From Salinisphaera sp. (lineage in GTDB: Bacteria > Pseudomonadota > Gammaproteobacteria > Nevskiales > Salinisphaeraceae): DNA of 64,000 bases. Under the pieces are notes generated by a model. The model was not told the origin of the DNA. It worked only from the letters and a program-made list of their open reading frames with translations, and ran no database searches. The DNA lies in NCBI GenBank assembly GCA_027858915.1, contig JAQIBT010000111.1:62001-126000 (forward strand), in the 5' to 3' direction. Shown here in pieces: positions 1 through 14,354 of the stretch. Within the stretch, counting starts at the first letter, position 1. Each line of letters starts with the position of its first letter. The translations under genes were made by a program, and so were the position numbers.

Positions 1-3000
1 CACGTTGACCCACGGCGCCGGCGTCTGCTGGCCGGCGCGCAGGGTGATGACATACTCGCGCCCGTTGGCCGCAAAGCCGCCCAGCGCGGTGCCCAGAATA
101 AGCTTGTCGCGCGGCGCCTCGGCCGCCGCTGGCACCACTGGTATCGCTTCGCTCGAGGCACCACGCACGCTGCGGGCGGACACCAGCCGGTCGCCGCGCC
201 TGGCCACGAACGGCCGCCGCGCGACTTGATCGGCCAGGCTGCCACGGCCGTCGGTGATGATCACCCGTGCCACCGCCTGCAGCAGGATGCGGTCCTCGTA
301 GGAGATCTGCTCGGCCAATCGTACGAAGATACCGCCCGGCCGATCGATGGACTTACCCTCGGTGCCGGTGGCGATCAGCCCCATGATCTCGTCCTGCAAG
401 CGCTGGCGATAGCCGACGTGATCCTCATTCCAGATCACCAGATCGACCATCAGGCCTTTCAGCCGCCAGTAGGCATGGCACCGGATCACCTGTCTGGCCA
501 GTTCGATATGTTCGCTGCTGGCAATCTTGAGCAACACGATCGGCAGGTCGCCGGAGATGGCATAGCCCCAAAGCCCGGGCTGGCCGCGCCGATTCTGGGC
601 CAGCAGGCCGGCATCGGCGCGTAGGCGGGCATTGGCATAGATCACCGAGCCGGCCAGCCGGCGATAGAGCTGGGCATCGATCTCGCTGGCATTGATCTGG
701 CGCAGGGTTACACCGCTGTGGGTAACCGCGATATCGTGCACCCGATCGGCGAAATGCCGATCCTGATATTTACCCACCAGCGTCATGCAGGCCGCGCGAT
801 CGTCGGCCGCGCCGCTGATGATATCGATGGTCGCCGACTGCTCGGAGGCGAGAGTGACCCGACAGCGGATAGCCACGATTGGATCGAGCACCGAGCCATC
901 GGTGCCCGACAACGGCCCGGATTCATCCAGCACCGCGGGTGCGGCTAGACTCCGCCCGCGGCCGATGAAGCGCATACGATCGGTCTCGCAGGAAACCCTG
1001 CCCAGGGCCGTACCGTTGGCCGCCATCAGATGGAACATCCAGGGCGTAGCCTCGTCGGGCGCGCGCGGGCGCCGGGTACACAGGATGGCGCGATGGGATG
1101 CCAGGATCTCGGTCTGCACAAACAGATTGCCGAAGGCCGGCTGGGTCATGTCGGACGCCTGGGACGCCAGCACCACCTCGGCATAACTGGTGATCTCGAT
1201 CGTACGCGGCATGGGCGAGCCGTTGGTGAGACGGATCCGGCGCAACTCGATATCGTCCTCCGGCGAGACTACGATCTCGGTGTAGGTCTCGATCGAATGA
1301 TCGCGACGACGGTATTCGGCCCGGCCTTCCGAGAACATCGCCTGATACTCGCTCGCGATGGCCCGCGTCGGCTGGTGGGCGGCCGACCAGACTGCGCCGC
1401 TGTCGACATCGCGTAGATAGATGAAGGTGCCCCAGTCGTCGCAGGTCACGTCCTCGCGCCAGCGGCTGACGGCGAAATCCTTCCAACGGCTGTAGCCGCC
1501 GCCGGCGTTGGTCACCATCACCTGATAGCGGCCGTTCGATAACAGTTGTACCTCCGGCGCCGGCGTATGCGCGCCGATCGGCGTGCGTACAGGGGTGCCG
1601 GCTGCGTCTTCGAGCACGTCGGGGCGCGCTAGCTCGGCAACATGGGTATGCACCACTGGGGTCTTGGGGATGCGTTCCTGCAGCAGCAGCAGCGTCGCCT
1701 GGCACAGCGGATCGGATTCGAAGCGCTGCTGCATACGCGGTCCCAGCAGCAGTGAACCCAGCGCCAGCAGGCTCATGCCCTGGTGATGGGCCATGAACGA
1801 GCGCACGATCACGCTGGATTGGCCGGCGATCAGCCGGGTCGGCGTGTAATCGATGGCCTCGTAGAAACCGTAGCGACCTTCCATACCCTCGGTGGCCAAC
1901 CGCTGCAGATTGGCGCAGGCCGCTTCCGGGGCGACCAGCAACGCCAGCGCCGAGGCATAGGGGGCGACCACGGCATCCTCGGCCAGGCCGCGCTTGAGAC
2001 CAAGACCTGGCACGCCGAAGGCCTGATAGCAATAGTTCTGGGCCGCATCCAGCCGATCGTAGCCGGACTCCGACACCCCCCAGGGAATCGAACGCTGCTT
2101 GCCGTAGGCGATCTGGCGGGCGACCGCCGCCCGGCAGGTCTGGTCGAGCAGCGTGCCCTCATAGGCCGGCATTACCAGCAGCGGCATCAGGTACTCGAAC
2201 ATCGAGCCGGTCCAGGACAATAGCACCGGCGCGCCGGCAGCGGTGGTCAGCAGCCGGCCGAGCGCAAACCATGCTTCCTGCGGCAGCTGGCCCTGGGCGA
2301 TTCCCACGAAGCAGCACAGGCGGGCTTCCGAGGCCAGCAAGTCATAGACGCTGGCATCGCATCGAAAACCATCGACGTTGTAGCCGATCGCCAGCAGATG
2401 GCGGGTACGATCGTAGAGAAAGGCATAGCTCATGGTGGCAAAGCCGGTCGCCTGCTGGGCGAGCTGTTCGCAGAGCGCGATGCGCTCGGCCGCGCGTTCG
2501 CCGGCCGTCTCGATCGTGGCCCGCAGATCCCCTAGCCATACCTGTGTGTCTACCGTATCGCCCGGGTCGGGCGCATCGAGCCGTGCGTCGAGGATAGCGG
2601 TCAGCGCCGTACGACGGGCGGCCAGCTCGGCCAGACTCGGCACCGCGTCGAGGTCGATGAAACCGCGCAATGGCTCGGGCATCGCCGGCAGACCCAGCCA
2701 GGGCGCGAAGTACTCCAGTTCAGCGAGCACGGCACGCGTGTGCTTCGCGAGTGCCGCCAGTGCCGCTTGCCTCTCGTCAGCGCTATCCTCGAATCGTGCC
2801 TGCAACTCCTCAGTGGCCCGGTCGAAGAGATGCAGTCGATCCCAGATCCCGGTAAAGGATGCCGGCCGCAGACGGCCGTTCGGCTCCAGCAACGACTCCA
2901 GCCAGGCAATATCGTCCTGCTGGCGCTCTGGCGTCACGCTGCCGAGCACAGCCAGCGTATCCGCCAGGCCGTCAAACAGGCGCGGGCCGATGACCGGGGC

Positions 3001-6000
3001 ATCCGACAAATCAAGCAGACCGGCACGCAGGGTTAGCAGATGGCCGGCCAGATTGCCGCTATCGACCGACGATACATAGCGCGGCGGCAACGGCTGCAGC
3101 GACTGGGTGTCATACCAGTTGTAGAAATGCCCCTGGTAGCGCTCCAGTTGGGTCAGCGTATCGAAGGTATGGCCGGTGCGCTCGAGCAGCGTGGCCACGG
3201 TGATGAAGCCGAAATCGCAGGCCGACAGATTGGCCAGCAGCGCCAGACCGATATTGGTCGGCGAGGTGCGGTGGGCAACTACCGGGCCCGGCGCTTCCTG
3301 GAAATTGTCTGGCGGCAGCCAGTGCTCATCAGCGGTGACGAACTGCTCGAAAAAAGACCAGGTCTTGCGCGCGGTGCGGTGCAGGAATAGCCGCTGGTCG
3401 TCGCTCAGCTGGGCATCGCCGCGTCGCAACGGCTGGCTGGCCCACCAGGCCAGCGCGGGCCCAGCGGCCCACAGCAGCAACACCGGCGCGGCCACGAGCA
3501 GCGCCCACGGCTGCGACAGGAGGATACCGAACACCGCGATCACGCAGATCGCCGGGCCGGCCCACATGCAGCGATAGGTCGCCAGTACATCGTGTTCGGC
3601 CGCGGTATCGGGTTCGGACGAGGCCCGCCATTCCAGCAGCCCGCGATGGCTGATCGTCATTCGCCACAGGCTGCGGGCGATGGCATCGAGACTGAACCAG
3701 GCTTCATACGGCAAACAGGCAATAGTGAACCCGGCCTGGGCGACACTCTGGCGGGTCGAGACCAGTACCGCCTGCAGATGCTGGCGCCAAGGCACATCCC
3801 TGGGCCGGCGCAGGGCCGCTACAGCGGCGACCAGCGTCGGCGGCAGCAGCACGATCGCCAGCACGGCCAGCGTCCACCAGCCGGCCTGGCCCACCCACCA
3901 CCAACCGAGCAGCCACAGCAGCACCAGAGCCGCCGGGGCAACGCTGCGGCGCAGATTGTCGGCGATCTTCCAGCGCGACAGCGAGGGCAGCGGATTACGC
4001 TGAAAGCCGCCGCTCGCGCGCGGTACCCAGGGCAGCAGCCACTGCAGAATCTGCCAGTCGCCGCGAATCCAGCGCGCGCGGCGGCCGACATCGGCCGCGT
4101 ACCGGGTTGGATGGCTCTCGTAGAGATGCACGTCGCTGATCAGTCCGCAACGCGCGTGACAGCCTTCCAGCAGATCGTGGCTGAGAATGCGGTTGTGGGG
4201 GAACCGGCCCTTGAGCGTCGCCTCAAAGGCGTCGACCTCGTAGATGCCCTTACCGATGAACGAGCCTTCGCCGAATAAATCCTGATAGACGTCGGAGACC
4301 GAGCGCGTATACGGATCGATGCCTGGCTCGCTGCCGAACAGCCGCGCGTAATGCGAACGGGCCGACCCAGACAGGCTGGCCGCCATGCGCGGCTGCAGGA
4401 TGCCGTAGCCGGCGTCGACACGCTGGCCGCCCGTTGCATAGCGTGGCCGATTGAGCGGATGGGCCATGGTGCCGACCAGCTCGCGGGCGGCATCGCGCGG
4501 CAGCTGGGTATCGGTATCCAGGGTGATCACGTAGCGCACGTCCGCGAGTACCGCGACATCGCCGACGACACAGGAAAAACTCGCCCAGCCGCCGCCGCGC
4601 AGGGCGGCGTTGAGATCCGCCAGCTTGCCGCGCTTGCGTTCGCGCCCCATCCAGCAGCGCTCGGCGGCGTTCCACTGGCGCGGGCGATGCAGCAGAAAGA
4701 AATGATCGCAGCCCATGCCCGGATACTTGGCATTCAGCGCCTGGATGCCGGCCTCGGCCTGGGCCAGCCGCGCTGCGTCATCGTCGCGCCGCTCGGTATC
4801 GGCGTCTGGCGGGTCGGTGAGCAGGCCAAAATGCACCAGCGGATCGCGATTGCCCAGAAACCGAACTTCCAGCGCCTCGAGTAGCGCCTCGACGCCCTCG
4901 GCACTGCCGAGCAGGCTCGGTACCACCACCAGCGTTCTCAAGCCTTCTGCAACCCCGGCCGAGAAATCCAGCCGTGGCAGGCGTCGCGGCGTAACCCAGG
5001 CGGTCGCCACCCAATTGGCCAGCGCCGTGGCCAGTTGGCTGGCGGCCAGCACCGCGACCACGCCAAACAGCACCAGCAGGCCAGCCCCGAGGCGGTCGCG
5101 ATCAGCCAGTGCAAGCAGGCCGGCAGTGAAAACCAGCGTCATCAGGCCGATCGCGCCCAGATAGAACGGTAGTACGGCACGCCTGGCTACGCGGCGCATC
5201 CGATCCAAGGTCGTGCGGCGCACCTTGATCGCGTCTTCCAGCCGTGCAATACCGCGATCGACGAGATAGAAACCGACATGCGAGGTCACTGAGTCTGCGC
5301 CCGGCCTGCCGGCCTTTGCTGTAGCAAGACCGATGGCGGCACGGGCGACCTCCGCTTCGGGCCGATCAGCGCGCTTGGCCAGGCGATCAACTACCTGACG
5401 GTAGCGGTCGCGGGTGGCGAAATCCATCGTCGGATAACAGCCGGCCGGATCCGTGACGAGAATCTCCTCGACCACGCTGTGGGTTTCGACAAAGGTCCGC
5501 CAATCCTGGGCGCCCAGAAAACGCAGGCTGGTGATGGTGTTGCTGATCGTGACCTGGTCACCGGCCAGCTGCTGATTCTCGGCCCGCACCAGCCGTTCGA
5601 TGGTCTGGCTGGATTCCGCCAGGCGCTGCTCGATCCAGGTCAGCGGCAGCGCAAGCGCCGGTCCGTGGCCCTGCAGGCAGCGCACCAGCTCGGCCACGAA
5701 GGGACTGGTCATGGGCGGGTTCGAGCGCGCCATATCGGCAATCACCAGCACCAGGCTCTTGGGGTCGCGCTCGGCGACCGCCATCATCTGGTCGGCCCAG
5801 GCCCGGGCCTGGTCGAGATGCAGACGGGCGGCGGTGATACGCGCGCCTACCCGGCGCAGGTTCTCGATCAACGCCAGCCGCAGCGTAATCGGGATGGCCC
5901 ACAGCTCGCCGAGCGTCAGCGGGGTCACTGTCTGGTAGGCCGCCACGAAACCGCCGAGGATGTCGGCATCCACACGGCCGTCGCCGTGCGCAATCACCTC

Positions 6001-6432
6001 CAGCGCCAGATCGTAGACCCGCGGCAAGCCCTTCGAGTTACCCTGAGCCAGACGCGGCAGTTCCCGACTGTAGTTGTGCGGCAGATGCTTGCGGGCGGTA
6101 CGGATCTGCTCCTCGATCAGATACAGATTGTCGAGCAGCCACTCACCGGCAGGCGCAATCCGCAGCCGGGCAGCCGTCGCCGTGGCGAGCACACTGCAGG
6201 TGGCAATCAGCACCCGTTCGTTGTCGTCCAGGCGCCGCAGCAAGGGGTCCGTCAGAGTGCCATCTCCGAGTACATGAGAGCGTGCCAGAGCCTGGCCGTG
6301 CCGGGCCATCTGTTCAACGCTGAACAGTTCCGCGCGCAGCGGCGTGGCATCGACATCCGGGCCTTCGCTAGTGACGCCGCTGCGACTACCGACTGCCCCG
6401 AACAAGAGTGTGAATGGGCGCATGCGAATCAT
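1..6432 (-). CDS. ndvB: cyclic beta-1,2-glucan synthase (NdvB/ChvB/Cgs-like; GT84 plus glycoamylase/GH94-type regions), C-terminus off the window
   Basis: Minus-frame translation starts MRPFTLLFGAVG...ELFSVEQMARHGQALARSHVLGDG and includes RYVITLDTDTQLPRDAARELVGTMAHPLNRPRY and NGREYVITLRAGQQTPAPWVNV at the window edge. The start (6432 or 6423) lies just downstream of an in-frame stop. Absent from the ORF track because no stop falls inside the window. Confidence 0.92.
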   Translation of the reverse strand, partial: MIRMRPFTLLFGAVGSRSGVTSEGPDVDATPLRAELFSVEQMARHGQALARSHVLGDGTLTDPLLRRLDDNERVLIATCSVLATATAARLRIAPAGEWLLDNLYLIEEQIRTARKHLPHNYSRELPRLAQGNSKGLPRVYDLALEVIAHGDGRVDADILGGFVAAYQTVTPLTLGELWAIPITLRLALIENLRRVGARITAARLHLDQARAWADQMMAVAERDPKSLVLVIADMARSNPPMTSPFVAELVRCLQGHGPALALPLTWIEQRLAESSQTIERLVRAENQQLAGDQVTISNTITSLRFLGAQDWRTFVETHSVVEEILVTDPAGCYPTMDFATRDRYRQVVDRLAKRADRPEAEVARAAIGLATAKAGRPGADSVTSHVGFYLVDRGIARLEDAIKVRRTTLDRMRRVARRAVLPFYLGAIGLMTLVFTAGLLALADRDRLGAGLLVLFGVVAVLAASQLATALANWVATAWVTPRRLPRLDFSAGVAEGLRTLVVVPSLLGSAEGVEALLEALEVRFLGNRDPLVHFGLLTDPPDADTERRDDDAARLAQAEAGIQALNAKYPGMGCDHFFLLHRPRQWNAAERCWMGRERKRGKLADLNAALRGGGWASFSCVVGDVAVLADVRYVITLDTDTQLPRDAARELVGTMAHPLNRPRYATGGQRVDAGYGILQPRMAASLSGSARSHYARLFGSEPGIDPYTRSVSDVYQDLFGEGSFIGKGIYEVDAFEATLKGRFPHNRILSHDLLEGCHARCGLISDVHLYESHPTRYAADVGRRARWIRGDWQILQWLLPWVPRASGGFQRNPLPSLSRWKIADNLRRSVAPAALVLLWLLGWWWVGQAGWWTLAVLAIVLLPPTLVAAVAALRRPRDVPWRQHLQAVLVSTRQSVAQAGFTIACLPYEAWFSLDAIARSLWRMTISHRGLLEWRASSEPDTAAEHDVLATYRCMWAGPAICVIAVFGILLSQPWALLVAAPVLLLWAAGPALAWWASQPLRRGDAQLSDDQRLFLHRTARKTWSFFEQFVTADEHWLPPDNFQEAPGPVVAHRTSPTNIGLALLANLSACDFGFITVATLLERTGHTFDTLTQLERYQGHFYNWYDTQSLQPLPPRYVSSVDSGNLAGHLLTLRAGLLDLSDAPVIGPRLFDGLADTLAVLGSVTPERQQDDIAWLESLLEPNGRLRPASFTGIWDRLHLFDRATEELQARFEDSADERQAALAALAKHTRAVLAELEYFAPWLGLPAMPEPLRGFIDLDAVPSLAELAARRTALTAILDARLDAPDPGDTVDTQVWLGDLRATIETAGERAAERIALCEQLAQQATGFATMSYAFLYDRTRHLLAIGYNVDGFRCDASVYDLLASEARLCCFVGIAQGQLPQEAWFALGRLLTTAAGAPVLLSWTGSMFEYLMPLLVMPAYEGTLLDQTCRAAVARQIAYGKQRSIPWGVSESGYDRLDAAQNYCYQAFGVPGLGLKRGLAEDAVVAPYASALALLVAPEAACANLQRLATEGMEGRYGFYEAIDYTPTRLIAGQSSVIVRSFMAHHQGMSLLALGSLLLGPRMQQRFESDPLCQATLLLLQERIPKTPVVHTHVAELARPDVLEDAAGTPVRTPIGAHTPAPEVQLLSNGRYQVMVTNAGGGYSRWKDFAVSRWREDVTCDDWGTFIYLRDVDSGAVWSAAHQPTRAIASEYQAMFSEGRAEYRRRDHSIETYTEIVVSPEDDIELRRIRLTNGSPMPRTIEITSYAEVVLASQASDMTQPAFGNLFVQTEILASHRAILCTRRPRAPDEATPWMFHLMAANGTALGRVSCETDRMRFIGRGRSLAAPAVLDESGPLSGTDGSVLDPIVAIRCRVTLASEQSATIDIISGAADDRAACMTLVGKYQDRHFADRVHDIAVTHSGVTLRQINASEIDAQLYRRLAGSVIYANARLRADAGLLAQNRRGQPGLWGYAISGDLPIVLLKIASSEHIELARQVIRCHAYWRLKGLMVDLVIWNEDHVGYRQRLQDEIMGLIATGTEGKSIDRPGGIFVRLAEQISYEDRILLQAVARVIITDGRGSLADQVARRPFVARRGDRLVSARSVRGASSEAIPVVPAAAEAPRDKLILGTALGGFAANGREYVITLRAGQQTPAPWVNV

Positions 6433-7392
6433 TCGATCCGTCCGACGACAAGCGCATCGCACTTACGAAGAACGGCACGACACCGGCCACTCTGCCCGCT
6501 CTGAGAGCACGCCTTGCGATTATCCATGGCCGTCACTCGTTTTGTGTTGTCGAACCCTAAGCAGCTACTCCCCCGCACCGAATCAGGTGCGGGCCCTCGG
6601 CGCGGAACAATTTATCTGCCGCTAGCTCCGGGCTCGGTGTCGCACGCCACCACCGCGCCGCGCACCTGCCTATTCGCCAGCCGGTTCAGCAGCGGCTCTT
6701 CGCAAACAGTACCTGGTCGCTACGCCATAGATACACGGCGGCGCAAACGCCATCTGTCTGTTAACGCACATACGATCGATGTGCGATGCGTTCTGGATAA
6801 CCGGCACGACCTGGACGTATGGTCTACAACTACCACACCGGTCAGCCGATCGGAGGCAGTGTCATTTCGTACGCCGCTGACAACAAAAAGTGTGTGCCGG
6901 TTGCCTCACGTATGAATTTGCCGTTCGGTTGGACGCGTAAGAGCGGCCTCGCGAAGATCGTGATATTTGCCGCGCCCTGAATCAATCCCAATTTGTTACA
7001 TGCGAGATGAAGCCTGTCCACATGAATTGCGACGACGCCTGGCTGCGAATGCAAGCGCCAACGTAGCGAGCGTGGATGGGCTCAGGAGAGACTGGGAGAG
7101 TACTCGGGACTATCTCAAGTTTATTTCAGAGGCTCATGAGACCCTGACGGGCGGGTGCGGCCATTAGCTACACGAGATTCGGCCATACAGCCAGAGGAGA
7201 GGGTCCGGCCGCGGGGAACGGACAACTCAACAACCAAGTTCTTGATTTCCCGTTTCGGAATTGAACACTTTTACTTGCTCGCCCATCCAAGTCGACTCTC
7301 TACGCGATACGCTGGATTGGCTCGAGCCTACTGGCTTGCGGTCGCTGCATGTGACACGCTGAGCTTAGCCTGTTTTTCTACCGTGTCACGAT

Positions 7393-7704
7393 ATGAGCAA
7401 CGCTGCGGGTTTTATTGTCATCGCCGAATTCCACATCAAGCCTGATGAGGTGAACGCCTTCCTTGCTCTGGCGCATGAGGATTCAGCACAGTCGCTGGCC
7501 AACGAACCCGGTTGTCACCAGTTCGACGTGCTGACGAGCGACAGCGACGAAACGTTGGTGGTTCTCCACGAGGCCTATACCGACCGCGCGGCGTTCGATG
7601 CGCATATGCAAATGCCCCATTACGCGCCGTTCAAGGAAAGCTCGGCACCTCTGCTCACTGGTGAGCCGTTTGTGCGCTTCTTCCAGGTAAACATCGTTGT
7701 TTGA
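7393..7704 (+). CDS. antibiotic biosynthesis monooxygenase (ABM) domain protein, putative quinol monooxygenase
   Basis: 103 aa: FIVIAEFHIKPDEVNAFLALAHEDSAQSLANEPGCHQFDV...HEAYTDRAAFDAHMQMPHYAPF, typical ABM fold motifs. Confidence 0.85.
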   Translation: MSNAAGFIVIAEFHIKPDEVNAFLALAHEDSAQSLANEPGCHQFDVLTSDSDETLVVLHEAYTDRAAFDAHMQMPHYAPFKESSAPLLTGEPFVRFFQVNIVV

Positions 7705-7763
7705 TGCGATTTTGGATCGCAGCGCGGCGTCGTATGGAACGGCCACACGTCTTGTTTAGCGCC

Positions 7764-7871
7764 AAAAAAAAGACGGCGCCCGAGGGTGCCGCCTAAATAT
7801 TGCACGTGGGATCATGCTTGAATAGAGCCGTTCAGCATTGATATGAACAGCCACTATGTGATGGCTGTTCA
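7764..7871 (-). ncRNA. candidate intergenic small RNA (own promoter, 5' hairpin, intrinsic terminator)
   Basis: Minus strand: TTGACA (7902-7907), 18-nt spacer, ATTAAT (7878-7883), then a perfect 9-bp hairpin TGAACAGCC/GGCTGTTCA (7844-7852/7863-7871), ending in AGGCGGCACC-CTCG-GGCGCCGTCT plus T8 (7764-7793). No good ORF on this strand. Confidence 0.5.
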
Positions 7872-8061
7872 GGCAAGATTAATGCCATTAATTAATCGTT
7901 CTGTCAATGAACGCCTAGCCCTACAATATTATCGTGCGCTATCGAATTGAGCGGCTGTTGCCGGCGATTTTTTGCTGAACGAACCCGATATAAGGCTGGG
8001 CGTAAGGTTTGGCGACTGGCAAAGGTGCAAGTATTTATTGTGCCCTGTTCTGGAGATATTG

Positions 8062-8553
8062 ATGTCAGGATTTCGCATTCAGGCGCCCGCATCTGGCGAT
8101 CGGCGAGATTGGCAGCGTCTTTACGCCGGTTACGCCGAGTTCTACCAGACAACGCTTACCAACGAGATGGCAGACCGAGTCTGGCAGTGGCTGTTGGACC
8201 CCGCGCACGTCATAGAAGGTTTGCTGGTGCGCGATTCGCAAGCTGTGCTCGTTGGCTTGCTCCACGTTCGCGCCTGCCCTCACCCGTTGTCCGGCAGCGT
8301 CATTGGTTTCGTCGACGATATGTATGTTGCGGAGCACGCGCGCGGTACGGGGGCTGCTAGCGCGCTGATCGACGCACTGGCCCGTCTGGCCGAACAACGA
8401 CAATGGCCCCGATTGCGCTGGGTGACGCAGGACCACAATGCCCATGCAAGAGCGGTTTATGATCGGATTACCGGCGGGCCGAGTGAGTTCATCATGTATA
8501 ACTGGAGCGAACCGGCCGCCAATCGCCCCCGATCCGAGCATCCGGTGGCGTGA
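8062..8553 (+). CDS. GNAT family N-acetyltransferase
   Basis: MSGFRIQAPASGDRRDWQRLYAGYAEFY...GFVDDMYVAEHARGTGAASALIDALARLAEQRQWPRLRWVTQDHNAHARAVYDRI; acetyl-CoA loop ARGTGAAS. The ORF track start at 7972 is probably too far upstream. Confidence 0.9.
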   Translation: MSGFRIQAPASGDRRDWQRLYAGYAEFYQTTLTNEMADRVWQWLLDPAHVIEGLLVRDSQAVLVGLLHVRACPHPLSGSVIGFVDDMYVAEHARGTGAASALIDALARLAEQRQWPRLRWVTQDHNAHARAVYDRITGGPSEFIMYNWSEPAANRPRSEHPVA

Positions 8554-8725
8554 GGACATACACCGATCAACTCAGCGCACTCTCAGCCGAATGCGATTGC
8601 CCGAAAGCACTGCCGACCGGCTTGATGCCGATCAGTCACTATCTTAAGAACTCGCCTGTTGCCGTTTCATACGACGCCGGGGCCATATGAAACGGCGACG
8701 GGTCATAGCAACAGGAGCCGAACTG

Positions 8726-9249: not shown

Positions 9250-9885
9250 ATGATTTCTGCGTCACAAGCCTTGCAACGACTCAAGGACGGTAATCGAAAG
9301 TTCGTCGAACACGTATCGTCGTCGGACAACCTGGCCGGACTCGGCCCGTCCGCGCAACTGATTCAGGATCAGGAGCCCTGTGCGATCATCCTGGGTTGTT
9401 CCGATGCGCGCGTTCCGGCAGAAATTGTTTTTAACCAGGGGCTTGGCGATCTGTTCGTGATCCGCGTGGCCGGGAATATCGTGGCGCCCTCGCAGATCGG
9501 CAGTATAGAATTCGCAGCAGCCAAGTTCGGCACGCGGCTGGTGGTGGTGCTCGGCCATACCAAATGCGGCGCCGTACAGACCACGCTGGACGAGTTGCAG
9601 CAGCCGACTGAGCATCAGTCTCCCAACCTGAAGGCCATCGTCGATCGCGTGCGTCCTTCGGTTGAGGTGTTGCTGCAGACGGATTTGCGCCACGACCACA
9701 AGGCGCTGGCGGCCGCGGCTGTGCGTGCCAACGTCGAAAAATCCGTAGCGCAACTTCGTAGCGGCAGCGATATTTTGCGTAATCTGATAGACAACGACGG
9801 TTTACAGATCGTTGGCGCGGAATACGCGGTTGAAACAGGCACCGTCGAGTTCTTCGACAGTTTTAGCGCTGCGCCCTGCCCATGA
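9250..9885 (+). CDS. beta-class carbonic anhydrase
   Basis: CAIILGCSDARVPAEIVFNQGLGDLFVIRVAGNIV...VLGHTKCGAV: beta-CA zinc-ligand motifs CSDAR and HxxC. Confidence 0.95.
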   Translation: MISASQALQRLKDGNRKFVEHVSSSDNLAGLGPSAQLIQDQEPCAIILGCSDARVPAEIVFNQGLGDLFVIRVAGNIVAPSQIGSIEFAAAKFGTRLVVVLGHTKCGAVQTTLDELQQPTEHQSPNLKAIVDRVRPSVEVLLQTDLRHDHKALAAAAVRANVEKSVAQLRSGSDILRNLIDNDGLQIVGAEYAVETGTVEFFDSFSAAPCP

Positions 9886-10454
9886 ATCTGCTCGCCCATC
9901 TCTGGCTGGCCGATCGAACGGCTACCTCGGCTGCCGGGCAAATCCTGGGTGATATGGTCAAGGGACGGCTGGACGCGCCCCGTTTCGATCCCGCTACCGA
10001 CTACGGCATACGCCTGCATCGGCAGATCGACAGCCGCTGCGATGCGCATGCGGCACATACGCTGCTGCGCGATCGGTTTTCGCCGCCGCTGCGTCGTTAT
10101 GCTGGCATTATCGTGGACATCGGTTTTGATCACGCGCTGGCGCGTTGCTGGCCAGACTTCCACGATATGCCGTTGCCCGTATTCGCCCAGCAAATAGAGC
10201 AGCAGGTGCTCGACGAGTGGCCAAGCGATGCGCCATTCGCGGCACAACGTATGCGTGGACTCGGCCATACGCTTGCCAGATATGAAACGCCGGCCGGTAT
10301 TCAGCGGGCGTTGACATCGGTATCGCGCCGCCTGCGCCGAGCCAACCCCCTGCAGGATGCCCTACCGCCGCTGCTGGCGGAGCGGGATTTATTCGAGCGC
10401 AATGTGGCCGAGCTACTATCGGCGCTTGAGGGCCATCTGCAGAGCATTCGTTGA
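9882..10454 (+). CDS. acpH: acyl carrier protein phosphodiesterase (AcpH-like)
   Basis: MNLLAHLWLADRTATSAAGQILGDMVKGRLD...GIRLHRQIDSRCDAHAAHTLLRDRF...RRYAGIIVDIGFDHALARCW, a characteristic AcpH pattern. Overlaps the carbonic anhydrase stop by 4 nt. Confidence 0.85.
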   Translation: MNLLAHLWLADRTATSAAGQILGDMVKGRLDAPRFDPATDYGIRLHRQIDSRCDAHAAHTLLRDRFSPPLRRYAGIIVDIGFDHALARCWPDFHDMPLPVFAQQIEQQVLDEWPSDAPFAAQRMRGLGHTLARYETPAGIQRALTSVSRRLRRANPLQDALPPLLAERDLFERNVAELLSALEGHLQSIR

Positions 10455-12467: not shown

Positions 12468-13616
12468 CTACCACTCGGCAAAGCTACCGTCTGCATGGCG
12501 CCAGATTGGATTACGCCAGCGATGCCCGGTTTTTGCACGCTCGCGCACGTATTCCTCGTTGATCTTCACCCCCAGTCCCGGCCGGTCCGGAATGGTCACG
12601 AAACCATCTTCATAGGCGAAGACTTCGGGGTTGGTAATGTAGTCGAGAATATCGTTCGACTGGTTGTAGTGAATACCCAGGCTCTGTTCCTGAATAAAGG
12701 CGTTGTAGCAGACCGCGTCCAGTTGCAGATTTACCGCCAGTGCGATTGGGCCAAGCGGACAGTGCAGGGCCACCGCGACGTCGTAGGCCTCCGCCATGGC
12801 CGCGATCTTTCGGGTCTCGGTGATGCCGCCTGAGTGCGACGGGTCGGGCTGGATGATATCTACGTGGCCGGCGGCGAGGATCGGCTTGAAGTCCCAACGC
12901 GAATACAGACGCTCGCCGAGCGCAATCGGCGTGCTGGTCAGCGGCGCCAGTTCTGCCAATGCTTCGTGGTTTTCCGACAGCACCGGCTCTTCGATGAACA
13001 TCAGCGAATACGGTTCCAGCTCGCGCATGAGCACCTTGGCCATGGGTTTATGCACGCGGCCATGAAAATCCACGCCGATGCCGAAATCCTTGCCGACGGC
13101 CTCGCGGATAGCTGCTACGTTTTCCAGTACGCCGTCGACCTTGGCGTGGCTGTCGATGAACTGCATCTCTTCCGAGGCGTTCATCTTGATGGCGGTAAAA
13201 CCCAGATCTGCCCGTTCACGAGCCATGTGCGCAGTGTCACCCGGCCGATCACCGCCGATCCACGAGTACACCTTGATGCGATCGCGCAGCTTGCCGCCGA
13301 GCAGTTCATGCACCGGTACGCCGAGTGCCTTGCCCTTGATATCCCAAAGCGCCTGGTCGATGCCAGCCAGCGCGCTCATATGAATCGGCCCGCCGCGATA
13401 GAACCCACCGCGATAGAGCACGGTCCAGTGGTCTTCGATCAGGCGCGGATCCTTGCCAATCAGATAATCCGCGAGTTCGTCGACCATGGCGGCCACTGCC
13501 TGCGCGCGCCCTTCGACCACCGGCTCACCCCAGCCGATAATCCCTTCGTCTGTTGAAATCTTGAGAAAACACCAGCGCGGTGGCACCAGGAAGGTTTCGA
13601 GTTGGGTGATTTTCAT
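12468..13616 (-). CDS. dgoD: D-galactonate dehydratase
   Basis: [38 protein letters not shown]...[40 protein letters not shown]; mandelate racemase/enolase superfamily, DgoD-like over its length. Confidence 0.95.
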
Positions 13617-13644: not shown

Positions 13645-13694
13645 AGAGCCTGTTCATGATCCTCACGCCGCCGTGAGGATCATGAACAGGCTCT
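13645..13694. repeat. 23-bp perfect inverted repeat with 4-nt loop in the dgoA-dgoD intergenic region
   Basis: AGAGCCTGTTCATGATCCTCACG-CCGC-CGTGAGGATCATGAACAGGCTCT; arms 13645-13667 and 13672-13694 are exact reverse complements. Confidence 0.97.
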
Positions 13695-13721: not shown

Positions 13722-14354
13722 TCAGGTGGGTGAGTCGGCCAGCCGCTGCCAGCTTTGCGCGAAAGCCGCCGCGTTGGCGGCAACGGTTCGGGCGTCCATG
13801 CCGGCCTGGTAGAGGGCCGAGCCCAGACCAAAGCCGCTGGCGCCGGCTTCGACAAAAGCCTGCATGTTGTCCGGCGTGATGCCGCCGACCGGCATCAACG
13901 GCACCGAAGCGGGCACCACGGCACGCCATGCCTTGACGACTTTCGGCCCGATGGATTCGGCCGGGAAGAGCTTGAGGGCATGGGCGCCGGCATCCAACGA
14001 GGCAAAGCCTTCAGTTGGTGTGGCGACACCCGGGGCGCTGGCGAGTCCGGTACGCACGGTCGCTTCGATGACCTGGATATTCGCGTTGGGCGAGACGATG
14101 AGGCGCCCGCCCGCATCGGCTACCTGGCGTACCTGCGGGGGCGCCAGGACCGTGCCCGCGCCTACCAGGGCCTCTTCGCCGAGTGATTTAACCAGCCGTT
14201 CGATGCTGGTGAACGGATCCGGCGAATTCAGCGGAATTTCGATAATCCGGAAACCTGCGTCGAACAACGCATGGCCTATCGCCTCGATCTCGTCAGGCGT
14301 GACGCCGCGCAGGATCGCAATCAAAGGCAGTTTTTTCAGGTAACGTTCGAGCAT
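13722..14354 (-). CDS. dgoA: 2-dehydro-3-deoxy-6-phosphogalactonate aldolase
   Basis: LPLIAILRGVTPDEIEAIGHALFDAGFRIIEIPLNSPDPFTSIERLV...LVGAGTVL...GRLIVSPNAN...LKLFPAE; KDPG/KDPGal aldolase motifs; clustered with dgoK and dgoD. Confidence 0.95.
   Translation of the reverse strand: MLERYLKKLPLIAILRGVTPDEIEAIGHALFDAGFRIIEIPLNSPDPFTSIERLVKSLGEEALVGAGTVLAPPQVRQVADAGGRLIVSPNANIQVIEATVRTGLASAPGVATPTEGFASLDAGAHALKLFPAESIGPKVVKAWRAVVPASVPLMPVGGITPDNMQAFVEAGASGFGLGSALYQAGMDARTVAANAAAFAQSWQRLADSPT

Follow-up and report, generated by a model that had tools for sequence, protein, structure and literature searches.

A putative σ54-dependent small RNA gene in an intergenic region of Salinisphaera

The intergenic locus and its predicted transcript

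The window, meaning the whole stretch of 64,000 nucleotides analyzed here, belongs to a genome of the salt-loving genus Salinisphaera and carries in succession a gene for an antibiotic biosynthesis monooxygenase (ABM), the predicted small RNA (sRNA) gene discussed below, and genes for a GNAT acetyltransferase, a DUF1348 protein and a carbonic anhydrase. The two flanking genes, ABM and GNAT, both lie on the plus strand, as the initial annotation had stated and as their Pfam matches bear out, and the sRNA gene is predicted on the minus strand (Table 1). Comparable elements are present in three other species of the genus, S. hydrothermalis (G005) and two species referred to here as G007 and G001. 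Just beyond the sRNA terminator, a 47-bp stretch (7708–7754) has an 83% copy on another contig (L002, G000:C33:108807–108853), and its core, GCGTCGTATGRAA, also lies within a 24-bp imperfect inverted repeat past the GNAT gene (8655–8702); the stretch and its recurrences are possibly a REP-like repeat.

Table 1. Genes, promoter elements and predicted RNA features at the locus
Feature	Position	Strand	Basis or remark
ABM gene	7393–7704	+	PF03992, E 2.7e-20; convergent with the sRNA
GNAT acetyltransferase gene	ORF 7972–8553, likely ATG at 8062	+	PF00583, E 1.1e-12; divergent from the sRNA
TTGACA, −35 of the initial annotation	7902–7907	−	Not conserved
ATTAAT, −10 of the initial annotation	7878–7883	−	Inside the σ54 element; not conserved
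σ54 −24/−12 promoter TGGCATTAATCTTGC	7873–7887	−	TGGCATT-N4-TTGC invariant among the four Salinisphaera species
5′ arm TGAACAGCCA of the hairpin of the initial annotation	7862–7871	−	Upstream of the predicted σ54 start; no counterpart in relatives
Predicted sRNA transcript, about 98 nt	7764–7861	−	Predicted to begin at about 7861 ± 2, from the position of the −12 element
First hairpin AUAG.GGCUGUUCA / UGAACGGCUCUAU, 9-nt loop	7822–7857	−	Folding; 3′ arm GCUGAACGGC common to the window and G007
ACGTGC (ACGUGC in RNA) in the linker between hairpin and terminator	7802–7807	−	In all four members
Intrinsic terminator stem GGCGGCACCCTCGGGCGCCGTC	7772–7793	−	GC-rich, then T8
T8 tail of the terminator	7764–7771	−	Sequence

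The predicted start was obtained by counting 12 nt from the GC of the −12 promoter element, and the resulting length of ~98 nt replaces the ~108 nt first proposed. The RNA would contain a strong first hairpin, a short AU-rich linker whose ACGUGC is a candidate seed, and an intrinsic terminator, of which both the GC-rich stem and the T8 tail (7771–7764) are present as originally described. Runs of at least seven T are rare in the 64-kb window, with one on the plus strand and seven on the minus strand, and in other genomes comparable stems terminate rpoH and an acs-like gene, both named by reading the ends of the translations. The minus strand from 7873 to 7757 folds with −46.1 kcal/mol (z = −5.4, with none of 200 shuffles as good), compared with z = −2.7 for the plus strand, and the predicted transcript 7861–7764 alone gives z = −3.4. 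The counterparts in the three relatives, with predicted lengths of 108, 110 and 100 nt, fold with z of −3.8, −4.9 and −3.2.

A hairpin of 9 bp with a 10-nt loop had been placed at the 5′ end of the RNA. The repeat TGAACAGCCA/TGGCTGTTCA exists, with 10 bp and an 8-nt loop (7871–7862 / 7853–7844), but a start at ~7861 leaves its 5′ arm ahead of the transcript and therefore probably outside the RNA. The second pairing option of the initial annotation, GTTCA/TGAAC, is also present and forms the core of what is likely the true first hairpin.

The transcript appears to be non-coding. An 18-codon frame opens from an ATG that overlaps the promoter, and a frame of 8 codons is contained in the predicted window transcript, as would suit a short mRNA or the leader for a small peptide; the longer frame, however, begins before the site where transcription is predicted to start, no ORF was seen to be conserved, and the transcripts of G005 and G007 contain no ATG at all. 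On this last ground the small-peptide reading was rejected, and we regard it as extremely improbable.

σ54 and σ70 promoter sequences

Upstream of the predicted RNA, TGGCATTAATCTTGC presents the GG and TGC of the −24 and −12 elements at the right spacing, and is of the same −24/−12 type as Salmonella σ54 sites such as that of hypA, TGGCATAAATATTGC (PMC3844500). When both strands of the window were scored with a σ54 matrix built from 29 Salmonella sites (training scores 16.7–25.3), the top score on either strand, 14.0, fell at 7887. This score is lower than that of every training site, and chance alone would yield 1.0 site of this quality per 64 kb; the weight of the match thus comes from its position and its conservation. 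The elements of the relatives score 13.9 (G005), 17.6 (G007) and 18.6 (G001). Furthermore, rpoN (PF04552 above its cut-off) is found in all 14 Salinisphaera genomes, that of the window included.

The initial annotation had instead assigned a σ70 promoter, whose TTGACA and ATTAAT boxes are indeed present on the minus strand with the 18-nt spacer described; as a promoter, however, they have no counterpart in the three relatives, in which TGGCATT-N4-TTGC is conserved instead. A real sRNA transcribed from this σ70 promoter, either alone or overlapping the σ54 promoter in a GlmY/GlmZ-like manner, would start near 7871 and keep the TGAACAGCC hairpin. The perfect TTGACA and its spacing agree with such an arrangement, as does the better folding of the long form (z −5.4 versus −3.4 for the short form), and sRNA promoters with overlapping σ54 and σ70 sites are known (PMC3844500). 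Yet not only the two boxes but also the upstream hairpin arm is missing from the three other species, position 2 of the −10 box is not the conserved A, and a stricter σ70 scan requiring that A gives no promoter at this site (0 against an expectation of 1.1 in 2 kb). TTGACA followed at 16–18 nt by a −10 box matching at 4 of 6 positions occurs twice in the window, which is not above chance, and the other match is equally good. We therefore consider transcription from the σ70 site unlikely; a perfect TTGACA can mislead where a σ54 promoter adjoins.

On the minus strand between 7877 and 7913, the perfect dyads CGTTC-N7-GAACG and GATTAAT-N7-ATTAATC overlap the TTGACA and the σ54 element; they could be operators or could have arisen by chance.

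Counterparts and conservation within the genus

In all four species the element lies on one strand of a gap flanked by ABM and/or an Fe-alcohol dehydrogenase gene, and consists of TGGCATT-N4-TTGC followed by a predicted transcript of 98–110 nt that contains a strong hairpin and ends in a terminator. The G005 element was first found as a minus-strand terminator downstream of ABM; the sequence around it recurs with 86% identity next to ABM in G007 and matches G001 over a shorter length. The order in G005 is ABM, the sRNA (on the opposite strand), a YaaH-type acetate transporter, a multicopper oxidase, a phosphoesterase and a carbonic anhydrase; in G001 an Fe-alcohol dehydrogenase precedes the sRNA, which is followed by a short YaaH-like frame and the same oxidase, phosphoesterase and carbonic anhydrase series; in G007 the transporter, the sRNA and ABM are followed by an Fe-alcohol dehydrogenase, recognized by eye from its likeness to that of G001. 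The YaaH-type transporter of the window species sits on another contig (L116, G000:C117:4000–10000), not adjoining the sRNA, and there lies downstream of an acetyl-CoA synthetase-like gene (by eye).

A detectable copy is confined to 4 of the 14 genus genomes. The ABM or YaaH loci of G013, G010, G009 and G003 have no σ54 box with a terminator at that place, and the gap in G013 is filled by another gene, by sequence a probable sodium/solute symporter. A BLAST comparison of the window element with 61 genomes returned no homologue, the matches being two short ones to terminators elsewhere and, in its own genome, the 47-bp repeat, and a comparison with plasmids likewise found none; a search of its own genome for the hairpin pattern with up to three mismatches produced no second copy, only chance matches with three mismatches. 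In two wider covariance searches, of 81 relatives and of 85 genomes of the order, the models were built from the four members, whose own scores are thus high by construction, and beyond these members only weak matches appeared. Those inspected were mostly gene-end terminators without a −24/−12 box. The best match of the 85-genome search, in G003 (E 0.001), coincides with one such gene end, L069. Since neither search gave a further convincing copy, the element is known from these four genomes. The family thus escapes an ordinary sequence search that starts with a single copy, yet is detectable through position and promoter.

The limits of the conserved unit are sharp between G005 and G007, the best pair. 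When their whole intergenic regions were aligned and read in 40-nt windows, identity was about 0.6–1.0 from an upstream block through the promoter and the transcript to the T run, rose to 1.0 in the linker and the terminator, and fell to about 0.3 directly past the T run and to about 0.3–0.5 further upstream. Judged from the two sequences, this pattern is what selection on a promoter and its transcript would look like. Another stretch, adjoining the start of the transporter gene, is conserved as well and is probably part of that gene. The upstream block itself is located within about 100 nt upstream of the σ54 promoter (L099 about 10120–10220, L100 about 9600–9697) and contains the dyads TTGGCTAATTGCCAA in G005 and TAGACGA...TCGTCTA in both species, which are candidate activator sites. 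No equivalent of this block was identified in the window or in G001, and no activator site common to all four members was found; TGTTAC, one of the CbrB subsites (TGTTAC/GTAACA), occurs upstream of the G001 copy and was not noticed by eye in the aligned upstream stretches.

The window copy is diverged. A leave-one-out covariance model built from the three relatives alone placed 7892–7766 first in the 64-kb window (19.3 bits, E 0.0022, or about 1e-5 when scaled to the 360-bp gap, a rough value since the calibration was short); genome-wide the same model did not return the window element and gave instead a chance match of 19.2 bits (L101), which lacks both TGGCATT and a T run. With promoter and terminator excluded, the interior of the window element is weakly similar to those of the relatives, with local alignment p of 0.13 (G005), 0.01 (G007) and 0.17 (G001), and global p of 0.36, 0.053 and 0.068, respectively. 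Across the four species 91% of the cells of the inner helix are paired, with one C-G to U-A change, and sliding the pairing partners by 1–3 columns lowers pairing from 96% to 26–67%. The conservation of both stems had been proposed as a check on the gene: three counterparts were found, each with the σ54 promoter, but pair covariation with four sequences is not above that of shuffled controls. With interior alignments and covariation this weak, the case for homology is built on the combination of promoter, spacing, position and layout.

These comparisons also bear on whether there is a separate gene here at all. The stem and T8 might only keep antisense transcription that comes from the direction of GNAT out of ABM, or act as a weak two-way terminator of ABM, the σ54 match then being a chance occurrence or a relic. 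A terminator facing ABM would do so, the plus strand has A8 ahead of the stem, and the weak interior similarity agrees with such a role. On the plus strand, however, the stem is followed by TAAATATT, with no T run; an identical promoter in four species, at a similar distance from the terminator and in the corresponding gap, would be hard to obtain by chance; and the G005/G007 pair points to selection on the whole unit. A terminator without a gene is accordingly a quite unlikely explanation.

The minus-strand sRNA gene of the initial annotation is thus supported by the three counterparts, the sharp G005/G007 limits, the folds, the terminator, the absence of a conserved ORF and the lack of any known Rfam family. 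The explanation that we favor, and hold to be likely, is a stand-alone intergenic minus-strand sRNA gene under the control of σ54 and an activator, whose predicted RNA of ~98 nt would probably act by base pairing.

Proposed function and known σ54-dependent sRNAs

σ54 RNA polymerase would bind TGGCATTAATCTTGC (7887–7873) and start transcription near 7861 once an enhancer-binding protein is active. The resulting ~98-nt transcript would comprise the strong hairpin (7857–7822), the AU-rich linker with ACGUGC, and the terminator with its U8 tail (7793–7764). An AU-rich stretch ahead of a terminator with a U8 tail, as predicted for this sRNA, would suit Hfq binding. The most likely mode of action of the sRNA would be base pairing in trans, probably together with Hfq, with mRNAs that belong to the σ54-controlled programme.

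Pairing with possible cis targets was also evaluated in a crude test, using the first 66 nt of the RNA, the start regions of eight genes (six of the window species, two of G005) and shuffled-RNA controls. In the window species, pairing was better than that of shuffles by about 2.0 sd for ABM, 2.5 sd for DUF1348 and 1.7 sd for YaaH, values uncorrected for accessibility or multiple testing; the other starts among the eight paired no better than shuffles, and the YaaH start of G005 did not repeat the result for that of the window species. The three pairings are only a lead.

At the gathering threshold, Rfam gave no match in the window, and the scan suggested in the initial annotation thus yielded no known family; the best permissive match, sbrA, reached 21 bits against a cut-off of 45 and lay essentially over the terminator. 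A literature search found no sRNA of Salinisphaera. The element is a candidate regulatory RNA for this genus, with a defined promoter type.

The predicted RNA would be a narrowly distributed new sRNA, and σ54-dependent sRNAs, which form a kind rather than a single sequence family, are already known (CrcZ, NrsZ, GlmY, Qrr). Qrr1–5 depend on σ54 and are ~100 nt long. In Vibrio they are activated by LuxO (PMC7602753), whereas the window element has no Rfam match and no luxO-like gene among the neighbors examined. CrcZ, CrcY and CrcX of Pseudomonas and Azotobacter are started by σ54 RNA polymerase with the enhancer-binding protein CbrB (PMC6296734; PMC8395346), and are likewise intergenic sRNAs with a σ54 promoter, as predicted here; CrcZ, however, is 407 nt long and serves as a decoy in carbon catabolite repression by Hfq/Crc, whereas the window RNA would be ~100 nt, and no Crc-type A-rich motif was noticed by eye in the transcripts. 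NrsZ of Pseudomonas, under NtrC and σ54, is an intergenic sRNA with a σ54 promoter that acts by base pairing (PMC8395346), but it adjoins ntrC, is ~226 nt long and is processed, and thus differs from the window element in neighborhood and length. GlmY and GlmZ of enterobacteria, under GlrR and σ54, have TGGCA-type σ54 promoters that overlap σ70 ones (PMC3844500); a σ70-like site overlaps the σ54 promoter in the window too, although it is not conserved and the element has no Rfam match.

A broader reading, which is speculative and very unlikely, is that the four elements form a fast-evolving σ54 sRNA family specific to Salinisphaera, in which promoter, position and two-hairpin layout are kept while most of the sequence turns over, and which would link σ54 signaling to the surrounding acetate transporter, Fe-alcohol dehydrogenase and carbonic anhydrase genes. 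In the window species, the overlapping σ70 promoter could then give a longer 5′ form with the TGAACAGCC/GGCTGTTCA hairpin, that is, a promoter-dependent structural switch.

Elsewhere in the window, the minus strand of 1–6462 holds an open frame that continues past the left edge, is at least 2154 aa long and by eye resembles cyclic beta-1,2-glucan synthetase. At 13645–13694, a perfect inverted repeat of 23 bp around a 4-nt loop (AGAGCCTGTTCATGATCCTCACG...) lies between two minus-strand ORFs that by eye resemble a 2-keto-3-deoxy-phosphogalactonate aldolase (13722–14354) and a galactonate-type dehydratase (12468–13616).
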